57,180 nucleotides of DNA. It comes from Pseudomonadota bacterium (GTDB taxonomy: Bacteria > Pseudomonadota > Gammaproteobacteria > JAKAQQ01). A program made the position numbers and the translations under genes. The stretch covers positions 1-57,180 of the forward strand of contig JAJZYM010000010.1 in NCBI GenBank assembly GCA_021798115.1. The letters are read 5' to 3'. Within the stretch, counting starts at the first letter, position 1. Each line of letters starts with the position of its first letter. The notes under the pieces were generated by a model. That model was not told the DNA's origin and did not search any database. It worked only from the letters and a program-made list of their open reading frames with translations. Below are positions 4,776-10,098 of this stretch, piece by piece.

Positions 4776-4860
4776 GCCGAGATGGCGGAACTGGTAGACG
4801 CGCTGGTTTCAGGTACCAGTGGAGCAATCCGTGGAGGTTCGAGTCCTCTTCTCGGCACCA
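4776..4860 (+). tRNA. tRNA-Leu (anticodon CAG)
   Basis: An 85-base tRNA with encoded CCA. The acceptor stem GCCGAGA pairs with TCTCGGC, followed by discriminator A and CCA. The anticodon stem CTGGT/ACCAG encloses loop TTCAGGT with CAG at 4810-4812. The D arm carries GGTAGACGC and a long variable arm is present, as expected for class II tRNA-Leu. The T arm is GAGGTTCGAGTCCTC. It decodes CUG. Confidence 0.97.
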
Positions 4861-5099
4861 ACAAGAAACAGAACCTCGATCAGGCCCCGCCAGGATCTCA
4901 AGTTTCTCGCGCGTTCCTGAAAAGGGCCGGGATTCCTGCAGCGTTCCGTCCTGCGATGACCGAGAAGGGACGGCGAGGCCGTCGGGCCATCTTTCCCGAC
5001 TCTGAACGGCCGGGCCTGTCGCGCCAAGGGTTCAGGCCAGGACGCGCCGGAACGGGCGGCGGGGTCCCTCTCCCGTCACGGCTTTGCGGGTCCCGAAAA

Positions 5100-5837
5100 T
5101 CAGGCTCTCCGGCCGCGCGCGGTACGCCTCTTTCTCGCCGTCGTCCTCGCAGCCGTCTTGACCTTCCGCGCCGCCTTCGCGACCGCCTTGCGTCGGGTCG
5201 ATGGACGACGGACACTGCTCTTTGCGGTCTCGAGTGAAGACGTCACGAGGACGTTCCGGACGTCGACCGGGCGGGTCGGATCGCGCACTTCCATATGGTG
5301 CCGGCGACGTCCACGGCCGTAGTTTTTCCAGTGCCCCGAATCCTTCCAAACCGCCCACCATTCGGGCAGTGTCAGTGCAACCCGACGGCGACGATGTCGG
5401 CTCGCCGAGGCATGGAATACGCGGAACCGGTGCAGCGGGGAGCGGTGGCTCCAGTGCGGAAGCCGGCGGTAGGCGGGCGAGATCGCCCGCCACTCGGCGA
5501 GGACTTTCTCGACCTCCTCGTGCGAGCAGCGGTAATCACGCCGCGCCGTCCTCTCGAGTTTGCGCAGGCGGTCCTTGTCCTGCAAGAGTTGACGGCGGGC
5601 GGTGCGGAGCGAGACACCGCCCTGCAAACGCGAGATGCCGAGAGCACGCAGAATCTGACGCACCCGTTCGGCGGTGAGTCCCACCTCATCGGCGATGGCG
5701 GTGCAGGTTCCCCCGGAAAGATAGCGCCGGGCGATCTTTTGAATCCCCTTGCGTCTCCTGGGATCTTCGTAGCGCTCGTCGATGATCCGCGAGACCCGCC
5801 GCCACACCCGCCCGTCGATCGAAACAATGCTGTTCAT
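5100..5837 (-). CDS. HTH DNA-binding protein with histone H1/AlgP-like basic tail, function unknown
   Basis: A 245-residue basic protein not recognised as a named family. Residues about 30-70 (IARRYLSGGTCTAIADEVGL, then TAERVRQILRALGI) look like a sigma-70 region 4-type helix-turn-helix. Residues about 95-200 hold a WWAVWKDSGHWKNYGRG segment and DVRNVLVTSSLETAK, reminiscent of a short motif seen in phage-associated DNA-binding proteins; this is a weak inference. The last 40 residues are almost only Lys, Arg, Ala and Thr (KAVAKAARKVKTAART), as in AlgP or bacterial H1-like proteins that bind DNA nonspecifically. It stands alone, with its own strong promoter and an ATG preceded by GAGG. A nucleoid-associated or regulatory role is likely but unproven. 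Confidence 0.75.
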   Translation of the reverse strand: MNSIVSIDGRVWRRVSRIIDERYEDPRRRKGIQKIARRYLSGGTCTAIADEVGLTAERVRQILRALGISRLQGGVSLRTARRQLLQDKDRLRKLERTARRDYRCSHEEVEKVLAEWRAISPAYRRLPHWSHRSPLHRFRVFHASASRHRRRRVALTLPEWWAVWKDSGHWKNYGRGRRRHHMEVRDPTRPVDVRNVLVTSSLETAKSSVRRPSTRRKAVAKAARKVKTAARTTARKRRTARGRRA

Positions 5838-5933
5838 GGCAAAACCCTCTGCGTCGTCGGGGCCAGCGCCGATGATCCCTGGCCGTGCAAGCCCAGGTCT
5901 TCATCCGGCATGACAGCCTGCACCCCCGGAGCG

Positions 5934-5962
5934 ATTATAGGACGAGGGACGCAAAAGAGCAA
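5934..5962 (-). promoter_or_regulatory. Sigma-70 promoter of the HTH/H1-like gene
   Basis: On the minus strand, a -35 TTGCTC (5962-5957), a 17-base spacer and a perfect -10 TATAAT (5939-5934). The predicted start near 5927 leaves a leader of about 90 bases before the ATG at 5837. Confidence 0.7.
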
Positions 5963-6204
5963 ATTGAATCTCTCGGCAAATCGGGCCCCGTCGTGCGTTC
6001 GCGTGTTTGAATCGCGGGGAAAAGATCCCTATCGCCCGGGAGGGATCTCATCGATTGCGCGTTGCAAATCCTTGCACAATGGGAATGCTCGATCACCGCA
6101 TCTCTTCGATCGTGGCCAGAATCGGTGAGCCCGAAAACAAAAAACGATGTTCCGGGACACAAGACACCGCGCCCCCCGGATCGGGACCGGCGATGAGAAG
6201 CGGT
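5963..6204. other. Intergenic stretch, no gene seen
   Basis: With 5838-5933, which is the leader of the HTH gene, this makes a 367-base gap between that gene and the short-chain dehydrogenase end. It is less GC-rich than its surroundings. I see no coding frame with family resemblance, no tRNA and no clear terminator hairpin with a T tract. Confidence 0.5.
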
Positions 6205-6954
6205 TTACGAGCGGGTGTTCTCGCCAAGGGAGCGCAGGTCGATCGTCGGCTCACGACCGAAGACATCGGACGTCACATAATCGAGGAACCGTTGCGCCGC
6301 GACTTCGGGGGAGACGAGAAGACCTTCGCGCGCGAGATCAAGAAAACGCCGCCGCTCGGGAAACACGGCGGGATCGAGCCCCCGCACCTCCGTCTGCATG
6401 TCCGTGTCGATCACCCCCGGAGCCACGCTCGCGATGCGCCATCCCGCGGAGGCGTCCACGGCCGCGGTACGCGCATGCTGGTCGAGCCCGGCCTTGACGG
6501 CACCGTAGACACTCCAGCCCGCGAGCGGGCGACGGGCCGCTCCGCTCGAGACGTGCGCCACCCGGCGGTCCGGGAGGCCCACGGTGACGCGGGCAAAGAC
6601 GCTCGTGAGAACGAGCGGGGCGACGAAATCGACCGCCGCGGCGCGCACGATCTCCGTCGCCGCAAGACGCTCCGGGGGACCCACCGGCCCGAGAAGCCCC
6701 GCGTTGTTGATGAGGACAACCATGGCGCTCCCGGCCAACCACGTCTCGAGATCGAGATCCTCGAGCACGCGCACGAGACGCGTGAGATCCCCAAGATCGA
6801 TCGCGGTCTCCCGGAAGCGTTCGGGCCCCACGCCGGGCGGAGGGCTCAGGGATCGGCGCGCCAGCCCCCAGACCGCCCCGCCGCGTGCGAGGGCCTCGCG
6901 GGCCAGCGCGGCGCCGAGTCCGCGCGAGTGACCCGTGATGAGAAAGCGGATCAC
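6205..6954 (-). CDS. Short-chain dehydrogenase/reductase (SDR), substrate unknown
   Basis: A classical NAD(P)-dependent SDR, 249 residues. The Rossmann glycine motif TGHSRGLG is at 7-14 (basic R11 suggests NADP), NNAG at 83-86, and the catalytic Ser-Tyr-Lys triad at S136/137, Y150 and K154 (YGAVK). APGVIDTDMQTEV near 180 is the usual post-Lys segment. The frame continues 70 codons upstream with no domain similarity; the GTG at 6954, preceded by GTGGAG, gives the family N-terminus and is preferred. The sequence resembles sepiapterin/benzil reductase-like SDRs, but the substrate cannot be told. It is the last gene of the minus-strand run that begins with the ccm operon, 61 bases after the DnaJ gene. 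Confidence 0.88.
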   Translation of the reverse strand: MIRFLITGHSRGLGAALAREALARGGAVWGLARRSLSPPPGVGPERFRETAIDLGDLTRLVRVLEDLDLETWLAGSAMVVLINNAGLLGPVGPPERLAATEIVRAAAVDFVAPLVLTSVFARVTVGLPDRRVAHVSSGAARRPLAGWSVYGAVKAGLDQHARTAAVDASAGWRIASVAPGVIDTDMQTEVRGLDPAVFPERRRFLDLAREGLLVSPEVAAQRFLDYVTSDVFGREPTIDLRSLGENTRS

Positions 6955-7015
6955 CGCTCGCTCCACCCCGGAAACGATCCGGGTGCGCGCCTCGTCGGGC
7001 GGTCGGTCCCGACGA

Positions 7016-7912
7016 TCAACCGAGTCTCCGCCGCGGATCCTCGGTGACGCTCGCGGCGAGACGCCGGAGGAGTTCCTGCCCCTCCTCGCTCCAGCGTTCG
7101 GGAAGAACGGGCTCGGGAACGACGTACAGGTCGCCCGCTCCACCTCCGGGTTTGTGGAGCCCACGGCCCGAGAGCCTCATGCGTCTCCCGGCCCGGCTTG
7201 CGGGCGGAATCTTGAGGCGGACCTTGCCGTCGAGGGTGGGAACTTCGACCTCGGTGCCAAGCGCGAGCTCCCACGGGTAGACCGGGAGCCTGAGGACAAG
7301 GTCGTGCCCCTCGAGGGCGAAGAGGGAATGCGGACGAACGCGGACCCGCAGAATGAGATCGCCGCGCTTCTCCCGACCGAGTCCCGAAGGGGCCTGGCCG
7401 CGAAGACGGAGCGTCTGTCCGTCCTGCGCGCCGGGAGGGATCTTGACCTGGACCGTTGCGTGCGGGAGAGCGAGGCGGCGCGCCGCCCCGCGGTGGGCCT
7501 CCTCGAGGCTGATCTCGATCTCGCCGGCGTCGACATCGGCCGCCGGAGCCTCGCGGAAGGACCCTCGCCGCCGTCCCCCGGAACCGAAACCGAAGAGCTC
7601 GAAGAACGACCCGAGGTCCAGCCCCTCGGCCCCGTCCGCGGGCTGAAAACCGAAACTCGAGGCCCACTCGGGTGGAGGGTCGAAGCGCTCACCCGGTCGA
7701 CGCGATCCGAGGGCGTCGTACGCGCGCCTTTTCTCGGGGTCGCTCAAGACCTCGTAGGCCTGCGAAATCTTCTTGAAGCGCTCCTCCGCATCCGGGGCCT
7801 TCGAGACGTCCGGATGGTACGTCCGCGCGAGGCGCCGGTAAGCCTTCTTGATCTCCTCGGGACGCGCGTCCCGGGAGACCCCGAGCGTCTGGTAGAAATC
7901 CTCGTATTCCAT
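7016..7912 (-). CDS. DnaJ/CbpA-type co-chaperone without zinc finger
   Basis: A J-domain protein that stimulates Hsp70 (DnaK) ATPase and holds unfolded clients. The 298 residues comprise a J domain (1-70, HPD at 33-35), a Gly/Phe-rich linker (about 80-125, [10 protein letters not shown] and [11 protein letters not shown]) and two C-terminal beta-barrel client-binding domains (about 128-290; [19 protein letters not shown] and [19 protein letters not shown]). The CxxCxGxG zinc repeats of true DnaJ are absent, so it is a type II CbpA-like protein. It lies 33 bases after the MaoC-like gene. A link to cytochrome maturation is only suggested by gene order. Confidence 0.92.
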
Positions 7913-7945
7913 CGCTTGCCTCCCAACACCGTCGGCGTCCGCCGC

Positions 7946-8854
7946 TCAGCGTGTCTCGACGTTGCCCTCGAGGTGAACCGTGCGGCGCAGCCGGTCCTGA
8001 AGCTGGAAATAGAGCATCGGGTCACGCCACCACGAGGACAGCCTGAGACGGTCGCGGCCGGTCACGAAGCGGCGAAAGCGGGCCTCGACCCGAAGCGAGG
8101 AGCGCCCGTCGAGATTGAGGGCCGCGAGGGTACGCGAGACCAGCCACATGCCCGGCGCCACCGCGGCGGGAAATCCCAGCATCCGAGCAAAGGTGTTGTT
8201 GAGATGGATGGGATTCAAGTCCCCGGAGACGCGCGCATGACGCCAGCCGATGCCCTCCTCGGGCGAGAAATCGCGCTGGACGGCGTCCTCGGGGGGAACG
8301 AGAGGCTGAAGATCGCGGATCCTCTTGAACGCCCGGCGGCGCTCCGGGACGAGGAGCTCGAGTTCCTCCCGCCAGATCTCGTCACCCCGGGGCCCGAGTT
8401 CGGTCGTGAGGGTGAATTCCAGGCCGCGGGGCGTGTGCGTAAACCCCGTCAGGCTCGCCCGGTAGGTGAGCGGCGGCACGAGCTCGAGGGGGCGGAAACT
8501 CTGGAGGCGAAGCGCCGTCTGGATGATCCCCCGAGCGCGGATCGGAAGGCGCGCATCAAAAAGCAGAAGGGCGTGGAGCGGGGCGGCCAGGAAATGGGGA
8601 TAGGTCGGGGGTGTCGTTCCGGGGGCGTAGCCGGTCTGGATCCTGTAGGCTTCGTGGCGCGCCGGATCCACCCGAGAGACCGTGAGTTCGCGCTCGATCG
8701 CGATCTGCTCGAGCTCACGCGGCGGGAGCCAGCGAGGACGGCGGTCGAGCGCGAGCGCGACGAGGAGGGAGCCGGGCGAGCGAAGCGCCAGCCGGGCGAG
8801 AAGCCCGGCGGGAGGTGCGGCTTCGCCGCTCCGAGAGGACGGAGGTGCACTCAT
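7946..8854 (-). CDS. MaoC-like hot-dog dehydratase/hydratase domain protein
   Basis: A roughly 302-residue double hot-dog protein. The second half holds the hydratase-2 signature HARVSGDLNPIHLN near 206-219 with the Asp and His that activate water in R-specific enoyl-CoA hydratases. PAAVAPGMWLVSRTLAAL follows, as in MaoC proteins. The first half (PTYPHFLAAPLHALLLFDA) looks like the degenerate partner hot dog. The likely substrate is an acyl-CoA or acyl-ACP thioester, not determinable here. The ATG overlaps the ccmI stop (TGATG; a GTG one codon earlier is also possible), so it is translationally coupled to the cytochrome maturation operon, an unusual partner. Confidence 0.83.
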   Translation of the reverse strand: MSAPPSSRSGEAAPPAGLLARLALRSPGSLLVALALDRRPRWLPPRELEQIAIERELTVSRVDPARHEAYRIQTGYAPGTTPPTYPHFLAAPLHALLLFDARLPIRARGIIQTALRLQSFRPLELVPPLTYRASLTGFTHTPRGLEFTLTTELGPRGDEIWREELELLVPERRRAFKRIRDLQPLVPPEDAVQRDFSPEEGIGWRHARVSGDLNPIHLNNTFARMLGFPAAVAPGMWLVSRTLAALNLDGRSSLRVEARFRRFVTGRDRLRLSSWWRDPMLYFQLQDRLRRTVHLEGNVETR

Positions 8855-10098
8855 CACGGGCGGGAATCGGGCGAGCGGGCACGATCCCCGAGACGCTCGT
8901 CGATCCGCACCCGCAGACGGTGGGCCGTGCGGAGGTAGGAACGGGAATAGATTCGCCGACCCTCGAGATCCCCCGGCGCGGGCGAGGCGAGACCGTTCAT
9001 GCTGAGAAGAGCCACGAGCTCGACCTCACGGGGAAGGTGGGAAGGTGGCCCCATCGGGCTGTCGGAGGGGGAGAGGGCCACAACGAGCGGGAACGCGGGA
9101 TGGGGAAGGACCCGAACATAGTACGGCGGGCTCTCGGGCGCCGAGGGGTTGCGGAGGAAGACGTAGAGCCGTGCCCCGGCCGGGACGGGGGTGGCGCGGG
9201 TCGCGAGCGCGTCGCTCACGTGCACCCGCCACACAGCGCCCTTCCCTTCCTCGTCCTCGGAGACCGGGGGTTGGGCCGGCGTCCCCCCGAGCGCCACCAC
9301 ACGCGAGGCGACGATGCCGCGCACCGTGCTCGGGAGCGTGGGATTCTCGAGAAGGCGGTTCCAGAGACGGAGCGCACGCGCCCGATCATGCGCGACGGCG
9401 AGTTCCAGAAGGCCTCCCCACCAGAGCGCTTTCGGTTGATCCGGATCGATGCGCAGCGCCCGGTGGGTGAGGGCGAGCTCGCGCGCGTCGAGCCGGCCGT
9501 GCTGCGCGAGGATGAGGACCTGGGCGTAATCCGCGAGAACCCCGGGGTTCTTCCCTCCTCCGTGGTGAAGGAGGTGATGGTAAGCCGCGGCGGCCCTACG
9601 GTCGTGACCGAGAAGTTCGTAACCGCGCGCCAAGGCCCGCCAGCCGCGGACGTCACCCGGATGCCGTGCAAGATGACGGCGGTAGCGGTGAAGCGCAAGC
9701 CGGAGGTCGTGGCGCTGCGCCGCACGCGGACCGAAGAAGACGTAGCGCCAACCACCGTAGACGCCGTAAAGACCCAGGGCGAGGACGACCATCAACACCA
9801 CGACGGCGGTCCGCGACAACGGGTGGCTCACGCGCCGTGGAGGAGCCGCGGTCGCCCGCCCATAGGCCTCGACCATCCGGCCGAGGTCGGATTCGGCCGT
9901 GGGAAGGTCCTCGGGACGAAGATCCCCCGAGGCGCGGGCGTCTTCGAGTTCGCGCCGGATCGACGCCCTGAGCCAGCCCCGGACGCGCTCGGGAGCCGCA
10001 TCCTGCTCTGTCGGTGTCGTCCCTAGGGCGCGCAGCACGAGGACGGCGGCCGCCCCCAGAAGAAGAAGAGATCCCACGACGAAGACGGCGGCACTCAT
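8854..10098 (-). CDS. ccmI: Cytochrome c maturation protein CcmI (TPR apocytochrome chaperone)
   Basis: A 414-residue inner-membrane protein that binds the C-terminus of apocytochrome c and delivers it to the CcmF/CcmH haem ligation complex. The sequence has a TM helix at about 4-25, a cytoplasmic loop with a leucine-rich pattern, a second TM at about 97-118 (AVVVLMVVLALGLYGVYGGW), then periplasmic TPR-like repeats (about 125-250, WRALARGYELLGHDRRAAAAY) and a C-terminal domain (about 270-400) with VSDALATRATPVPAGARLYV, the usual CcmI/NrfG-type end. The start overlaps the ccmH stop by four bases (ATGA). Confidence 0.92.
   Translation of the reverse strand: MSAAVFVVGSLLLLGAAAVLVLRALGTTPTEQDAAPERVRGWLRASIRRELEDARASGDLRPEDLPTAESDLGRMVEAYGRATAAPPRRVSHPLSRTAVVVLMVVLALGLYGVYGGWRYVFFGPRAAQRHDLRLALHRYRRHLARHPGDVRGWRALARGYELLGHDRRAAAAYHHLLHHGGGKNPGVLADYAQVLILAQHGRLDARELALTHRALRIDPDQPKALWWGGLLELAVAHDRARALRLWNRLLENPTLPSTVRGIVASRVVALGGTPAQPPVSEDEEGKGAVWRVHVSDALATRATPVPAGARLYVFLRNPSAPESPPYYVRVLPHPAFPLVVALSPSDSPMGPPSHLPREVELVALLSMNGLASPAPGDLEGRRIYSRSYLRTAHRLRVRIDERLGDRARSPDSRP

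Follow-up and report, generated by a model that had tools for sequence, protein, structure and literature searches.

Locus and gene content

The window, that is, the whole stretch of DNA that was analysed, is one contig of 57,180 bases from a genome of 1.88 Mb in 38 contigs (G000). Direct reading of its ORFs places a gene at 5837–5100 on the minus strand, with an ATG start and a product of 245 amino acids. The features discussed below are as follows.

5100–5837, minus strand: complete gene for an HTH, a helical linker, a predicted HNH-like beta-beta-alpha domain and a basic tail (ORF, two genus orthologues, dN/dS and AlphaFold2 model)
5613–5762, minus strand: HTH region, residues 26–75, of sigma-70 region 4.2 type, motif TAERVRQIL (profile A9, invariant residues and fold match)
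5202–5450, minus strand: Trp-rich domain, residues 130–212, predicted to be HNH-like, with two helices, beta strands at 180–184 and 196–200 and a helix from 201 (domain-only model and PHROG matches of relatives)
5103–5222, minus strand: Arg/Ala/Lys tail, the last 40 residues, net charge +18 (composition in three orthologues and rank among 155 ORF calls)
5934–5939, minus strand: -10 element TATAAT (direct reading; conserved in all three genus members)
5957–5962, minus strand: -35-like element TTGCTC with a 17-bp spacer (direct reading; TTGCTCTTT conserved in all three genus members)
4776–4860, plus strand: tRNA-Leu(CAG), convergent neighbour (adjoins the gene in all three genus members; family synteny breaks beyond it)

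The neighbours, named by eye from their translations, are RNase R, SDR, DnaJ and tRNA-Leu, and on their evidence a resident prophage was rejected. The first-pass annotation called the gene stand-alone, and its surroundings agree: the SDR ORF upstream on the same strand stops 367 bp ahead of the start codon, and the tRNA-Leu is convergent downstream. A 667-aa ORF in the same area (6935–8938, plus strand) runs antisense to the DnaJ-like and neighbouring ORFs and is probably a high-GC artefact.

Orthologues, selection and synteny

A convincing copy was found in three of 56 genomes (G000 and its relatives), all of one genus, with identities of 100, 89 (89–90) and 63%. The two other carriers are the "Proteobacteria bacterium" MAGs YF3.bin4 and YF2.bin84. 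The gene is single-copy in G000 and occupies one locus across the genus, and it was not found in any of the six other family members searched (completeness 73–94%). Three more weak matches in other families (E 2e-4 to 0.008) had internal stops and were taken as chance.

Whole-gene dN/dS (Nei-Gojobori) was 0.27 between G000 and G001 and 0.29–0.30 against G002, where synonymous sites are close to saturation. By part, the HTH, linker and Trp-rich domain gave 0.17–0.33 and the tail (residues 204–245) 0.54–0.74. Since two more genomes of the genus encode it with dN/dS of 0.27–0.30, 5837–5100 is a real gene, on which purifying selection acts in all three genus members, and a spurious ORF in high-GC DNA is ruled out.

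The order RNase R, tRNA-Leu(CAG), gene is common to the three genus members. The SDR gene is next in order in G000 and G001 and was found only in these two of nine family genomes (G002 is 65% complete). RNase R was detected in five of the six other family genomes, and tRNA-Leu adjoins it in all five. In two of those five, which belong to other genera, the order hflX-hflK-hflC-purA-tRNA-Leu was seen by eye, whereas in G000 the hflX-hflK-hflC-purA block lies on contig C6, away from the window, and the 20 kb read there contain no tRNA. Because tRNA-Leu adjoins this block in other genera and the block is elsewhere in G000, the gene sits at a synteny break at tRNA-Leu (window 4776–7164).

Promoter region

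The description of the promoter as near-perfect holds for the -10 element, which is TATAAT exactly, but not for the -35 element: TTGCTC agrees with the consensus at three of six positions only, which is why the consensus promoter scan did not list this promoter. Upstream of the gene, TTGCTCTTT and GTCCTATAAT are conserved in all three genomes, even though the upstream DNA around them is for the most part poorly alignable in G002. Conservation of TTGCTCTTT plus GTCCTATAAT (window 5934–5965) reaches beyond the two promoter hexamers, and the extra conserved bases around them could be an operator.

Database searches

Single-protein searches of Pfam, PHROGs, NCBIfam and PDB sequences returned weak HTH or chance matches only, and no NCBIfam model passed its cut-off on the window protein. 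With the whole protein, tblastn came back empty from 50,697 phage records, and from 72,556 plasmid records it gave a single match, put down to chance (E 6); the protein middle alone gave none in the phage records and two at E 5–6 in the plasmid records. Profile A3 had ten matches in 369 genomes of the class, namely G000, G001 and eight weak matches that all stop short of the Trp-rich domain; these eight were rejected as relatives and taken as ordinary HTHs. Two scans of genome contigs by short peptide patterns, which were not exhaustive, detected nothing the first time and only two genus members the second, and phrog_16521 had no match in the gene's own genome. With the whole model, Foldseek found no PDB match at E ≤ 0.001, and in a viral structure library there was one match at E 5.5e-4, to an uncharacterised phage protein, besides PHG31p119nc at E 0.19.

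Helix-turn-helix region

The sole Pfam signal on the window protein is the HTH at about residues 34–65, where Sigma70_r4 (PF04545) scores 20.1 bits, below its cut-off of 24.1; the two orthologues, at 22.3 and 18.9 bits, are below it as well. Three phage relatives (L007, L028 and L029, see the next section) pass the gathering cut-off, and Sigma70_r4 matches 30 of 32 family members at E ≤ 0.01, the best at 8.2e-13. When profile A9 (31 rows) was compared with PDB sequences, the primary sigma factors SigA/RpoD came first (best SigA E 3.3e-10). The SigA alignment spans the family profile consensus TLEEIGxxFGVTRERVRQI, at which the window protein reads TAERVRQI. The best fold match of the model HTH was sigmaA domain 4 (Z 5.8, rmsd 1.9 A over 52 residues); KorA and others scored within 1 of it and so tie. 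The earlier label of a sigma-region-4-like HTH is borne out by the 30 matching members and by the sigma factors that the family profile finds.

The motif E-R-x-R-Q of the recognition helix is invariant in 31 of 31 aligned rows. In sigma-70, the invariant residues of this helix read the -35 element. RER is present in all 28 viral rows with the HTH, and its first Arg is replaced by Ala in all three genus proteins; because of this replacement, the site of the genus proteins need not be a -35 element. Compared with sigma-70 region 4, then, the HTH and its recognition helix are alike, but the window HTH stands alone, with no region 2 found, is fused to another domain, stays under the Pfam cut-off and has Ala for the first Arg of RER. 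Sigma region 2 had no match in the window protein at E up to 10 in Pfam (HMMER filters drop most weak ones), and Sigma70_r3 had a single match, E 0.23, on the same HTH residues.

A two-domain family in phages

An IMG/VR scan with the alignment of the three genus sequences detected a viral ORF, L007, that aligns to residues 41–205 and so covers the HTH, linker and Trp-rich domain (29% identity and E 2e-16 to the window protein in a pair comparison). Widening from L007 yielded at least 34 loci, at least 28 of them with both domains when read, and with L029 the set comprises at least 29 distinct viral contigs. Judged by sequence, the HTH and the Trp-rich domain together are a phage family. The architecture had been put forward as belonging to no described family, which is right in that no curated Pfam or NCBIfam model exceeds its cut-off, but the two-domain set recurs in these viral contigs. 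No model listed in the family Pfam scan (25 of 36 families) and the PHROG scans names the phage combination as a whole, and a word search of open-licence literature gave no account of an HTH plus Trp-rich HNH-like phage protein beside a repressor. The parts of the protein are of known kinds; what is new is the host version with its tail and the phage combination, unnamed in the scans made.

Several loci were set aside. L054 (near-duplicate of L051 by eye), L034, L008 and L027 (L007 contig), L028 (same as L057) and L030 (same as L058) were left out of A7, and L062–L067, without a second domain, were dropped. L031 has no sigma-type HTH; it was excluded from A9 and from the 29 viral records used for neighbour counts, and was dropped from the tree for gaps. 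The tree groups the three genus proteins in a single clade (support 1.000), whose stem measures 1.67 substitutions per site, and their closest phage relative shares 32.5% over the compared columns of the tree alignment.

The L007 protein matches 79 annotated phage records, by name of enterobacteria, Vibrio and Aeromonas phages, and among the 60 matches listed the match covers the Trp-rich domain. Annotations in the records looked at read hypothetical, "putative endonuclease e-11" or "HNH endonuclease". Coverage of at least 80% was reached by none of the 79 records for the L007 protein and none of 55 for that of L040. In Vibrio phage VPp1 (L009:731–1183) the Trp-rich-domain ORF is not so annotated, and the CDS that the record calls "endonuclease" stops at position 774 of the locus.

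Two-domain phage proteins of L029, L038, L040, L044 and L061 have C-termini that look AP2-type by eye; AP2 (PF00847) is absent among the 25 of 36 Pfam families listed for the family scan. Phage HNN-AP2 proteins are described in part of PMC2248197. As far as the relevant parts of PMC2248197 and PMC10448857 describe them, phage HNH/HNN endonucleases with AP2 resemble the window protein in phage origin and in an HNH-like unit beside a DNA-binding module. The window protein differs from them: it has no His at the catalytic position and no AP2, the HTH comes first, and its phage relatives lie beside repressor-type genes.

The Trp-rich domain

The segment WWAVWKDSGHW (residues 160–170) had been credited with a phage-like flavour, and the Trp-rich domain is indeed common to viral ORFs. 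AlphaFold2 models of the full protein (mean pLDDT 91.3) and of the domain only (86.7) agree on two helices followed by strand, loop, strand and helix. Among 32 domain members, 29 match phrog_16521 at E ≤ 0.1, 17 match phrog_3118 "HNH endonuclease" (best 7.9e-7), five match phrog_4592 "decoy of host sigma70" (best 4.4e-4), two match phrog_3377 "HNH endonuclease" (0.0025) and two endonuclease VII (0.064). The window domain alone matches no PHROG family, phrog_16521 and phrog_3118 included, and that of the orthologue L002 reaches E 0.073 with phrog_16521. Foldseek with the domain model gave 27 PDB matches, 18 of them HNH chains (15 colicin E7/E9 DNase and three I-F_HNH/HNH-Cascade), all individually insignificant at E ≥ 2.8. 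VIA returned weak rows only, the best HNH chain (HNH-Cascade, Z 2.8) standing below another chain at Z 3.7, and the domain profile A8 found no relative among PDB sequences (best E 0.14).

We take the catalytic His of HNH units to stand at the end of beta-1 and the metal-binding His/Asn in the helix, with the register set by the predicted fold. At the end of beta-1, A8 has YxMxR in 26 of 29 viral rows and His in none, and the window protein reads HHMEV. The central Asn is kept (N195 in the window protein) and the Asn of the last helix is replaced in the three genus proteins. A reading of the domain as a degenerate HNH unit is moderately supported. DNA cleavage by it is unlikely, because the position of the catalytic His is not His and the last-helix Asn is lost in the genus.

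Part of PMC2988022 describes the mobile elements of T4. In four of ten phage regions read (those of the T4-like L012, L014, L015 and L018), Trp-rich-domain genes lie among tRNA genes. NUMOD3 was detected at E below 0.1 in three of nine T4-like domain proteins, and one, L014, exceeds the curated cut-off; by sequence, these genes are candidates for unrecognised homing-type elements. Phrog_16521, a phage family of unknown function in which L015 is annotated "HNH endonuclease", shares the Trp-rich domain with the window family. Its T4-like members, however, start with the domain, carry C-terminal extensions (some with NUMOD3) and have no sigma-type N-terminal HTH, and the window domain does not score against it.

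An active HNH-type homing or site-specific nuclease would fit the HNH-like predicted fold, the T4-like relatives among tRNA genes with their three NUMOD3 signals, the AP2-like C-termini seen by eye in several phage members, and the domain ORF of L031, which lies by eye between terminase-like and portal-like ORFs. We consider it very unlikely for the window protein, given the beta-1 motif without His in any of the 29 viral rows, the last-helix Asn lost in the three genus proteins, and a gene that is single-copy in G000 and confined to one locus in the genus.

The sigma-4.2-type helix and the five domain matches to phrog_4592 point to another role, that of an RNA-polymerase modulator which would mimic sigma region 4 and compete with or titrate sigma-70, as postulated for T4 Srd. 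The N-terminus of Srd, annotated "postulated decoy", does align with the domain, but this alignment is weak (P 0.06) and involves the HNH-like domain, not the HTH, and region 2 was not found in the window protein. Such a role is quite unlikely, if a little less so than that of a nuclease. In T4 srd itself (L095:2540–3286) the weakly aligned part comprises residues 13–85, and judged by sequence, Srd is perhaps not a mimic of sigma but a degenerate HNH protein.

Gene position in phages

Matches to HTH_3 (CI/Cro/Xre-type) were detected in 24 of the 29 viral records, and of these, L039 and L061 match nowhere except in the frame of the gene itself; a match that overlapped the gene did not count as a neighbour. 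A divergent HTH_3 gene lies upstream within 2 kb in 16 of the 29 and within 500 bp in 14. Random placement gave means of 1.07 and 0.28, and none of 20,000 trials reached the observed numbers; the trials treat records as independent, and the near-duplicates L051 and L054 are both among the 29 records, so that there are fewer than 16 independent cases. The 13 records without a divergent HTH_3 gene are not clear negatives, because they may be fragments.

On the same strand, an HTH_3 match lies no more than 135 bp upstream in six of the 29 (L038, L040, L041, L043, L047 and L056), and four more records (L007, L050, L051 and L054) have one that shares bases with the assigned ORF but in a different frame. 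L053, read by eye, has a repressor gene first, then a Cro-like gene, the two-domain gene and an overlapping gene taken for replication. From its sequence context, the two-domain gene of phages evidently occupies the place of an early regulator. Lambda CII-type early regulators are alike in gene position: several of the phage relatives lie downstream of a Cro-like gene and close to a CI-like one; no sequence relation is claimed. The captured gene of the window has, by eye, no CI/Xre-type repressor neighbour.

The basic tail

The last 40 residues comprise 12 Arg, nine Ala, six Lys and five Thr, with 18 Lys/Arg, no Asp or Glu and one Pro. Their net charge of +18 is the first of 155 ORF calls (next +13, mean 1.6, SD 4.0), and the whole window protein is also the most basic of the 155; these heuristic calls come from the window and ten sampled genome stretches, and some are certainly false. 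From residue 204 on, 29 of 39 aligned residues are retained in G001 and 15 of 42 in G002. The orthologue tails are still basic, with 17 (G001) and 13 (G002) Lys/Arg in the last 40 residues and one acid each.

A Lys/Ala/Arg tail of 40 residues, like that of histone H1 or AlgP, had been proposed. Its exceptional basicity stands, but it is Arg-rich, not Lys-rich. AlgP has 25 perfect KPAA repeats according to the part of PMC9239181 that describes it, and no KPAA tandem repeat was found in the window protein sequence. A basic, Ala-rich C-terminal tail is common to AlgP, PhaF, histone H1-like proteins and the window protein. The window tail, however, is dominated by Arg, has no KPAA and extends over about 40 residues, against 154–195 given for AlgP, PhaF and histone H1-like proteins in the same part of PMC9239181. 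With more Arg than Lys, one Pro in the last 40 residues and no KPAA repeat, the comparison with H1 and AlgP does not hold beyond what appears to be a resemblance of composition only, and kinship with AlgP is ruled out by the lack of repeats.

The first-pass annotation also proposed a sequence-directed nucleoid-associated protein, in which the HTH would seed binding and the basic tail spread along or condense the DNA. The rank of the tail and of the whole protein among the ORF calls is consistent with this, as is tail basicity retained in three orthologues while the sequence drifts. On the other side stand the shortness of the tail, its Arg-rich composition without KPAA repeats, phage relatives clustered beside repressor-type genes, and a convincing gene match in only three of 56 genomes of one genus. 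The proposal is weakly supported: nothing speaks for it directly, and the position in phages points to a gene regulator. We regard a nucleoid role as unlikely.

Proposed origin and function

What the gene's origin and role may be is best explained by an old chromosomal capture of a DNA-binding protein from the early region of a temperate phage, now a stand-alone host gene and regulator; we give this slightly better than even chances. It is read as a regulator because 16 of 29 phage relatives have a divergent CI/Xre-type gene within 2 kb. Several results weigh against capture and a regulator role. With phage relatives this distant (best 32.5%), a change of function is possible; the genus proteins have Ala in place of the first Arg of RER; no PHROG is matched by the window domain on its own; a divergent HTH_3 neighbour is missing from 13 of 29 viral records; and the T4-like genes related to the second domain are found among tRNA genes, some with NUMOD3, in a homing-like manner.

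As a captured regulator, the protein would read a specific DNA site with its HTH. The HNH-like domain would be non-catalytic and serve DNA contact or assembly, and this unit together with the long helices may hold or dimerise the protein. The Arg-rich tail would add non-specific, charge-driven affinity for DNA, where some phage relatives instead end in an AP2-like part or an extra HTH. The protein would then regulate transcription from a restricted set of promoters, its own perhaps among them.

A broader proposal is that the phage proteins are an undescribed class of temperate-phage early regulators. A helix of the kind with which the housekeeping sigma reads -35 elements, joined to a dead HNH unit, would sit on -35 elements and contend with RNA polymerase in the switch between lysis and lysogeny; one bacterial genus would have retained a protein of this class as a regulator of its own and given it the basic tail. 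This is tentative and, in our view, rather doubtful.

Sequence, predicted fold and gene position outline a phage family in which a reading head of sigma type is joined to a nuclease-like domain and the gene has a CI/Xre-type neighbour. It opens a testable question: have phages borrowed sigma helices to read -35 elements? The gene of the window, itself of moderate interest, is probably a further example of a phage protein that a host has retained as a regulator. Precedents for nuclease-related proteins turned regulators are CapR of PLE satellites and plant AP2 factors, given in part of PMC10448857. The proposed route is the same in the part of that source concerned with them, a nuclease-related phage protein being kept for DNA binding, although we infer the route here and the domains of the window protein differ from those of CapR, which derives from T5orf172, and of plant AP2 factors.
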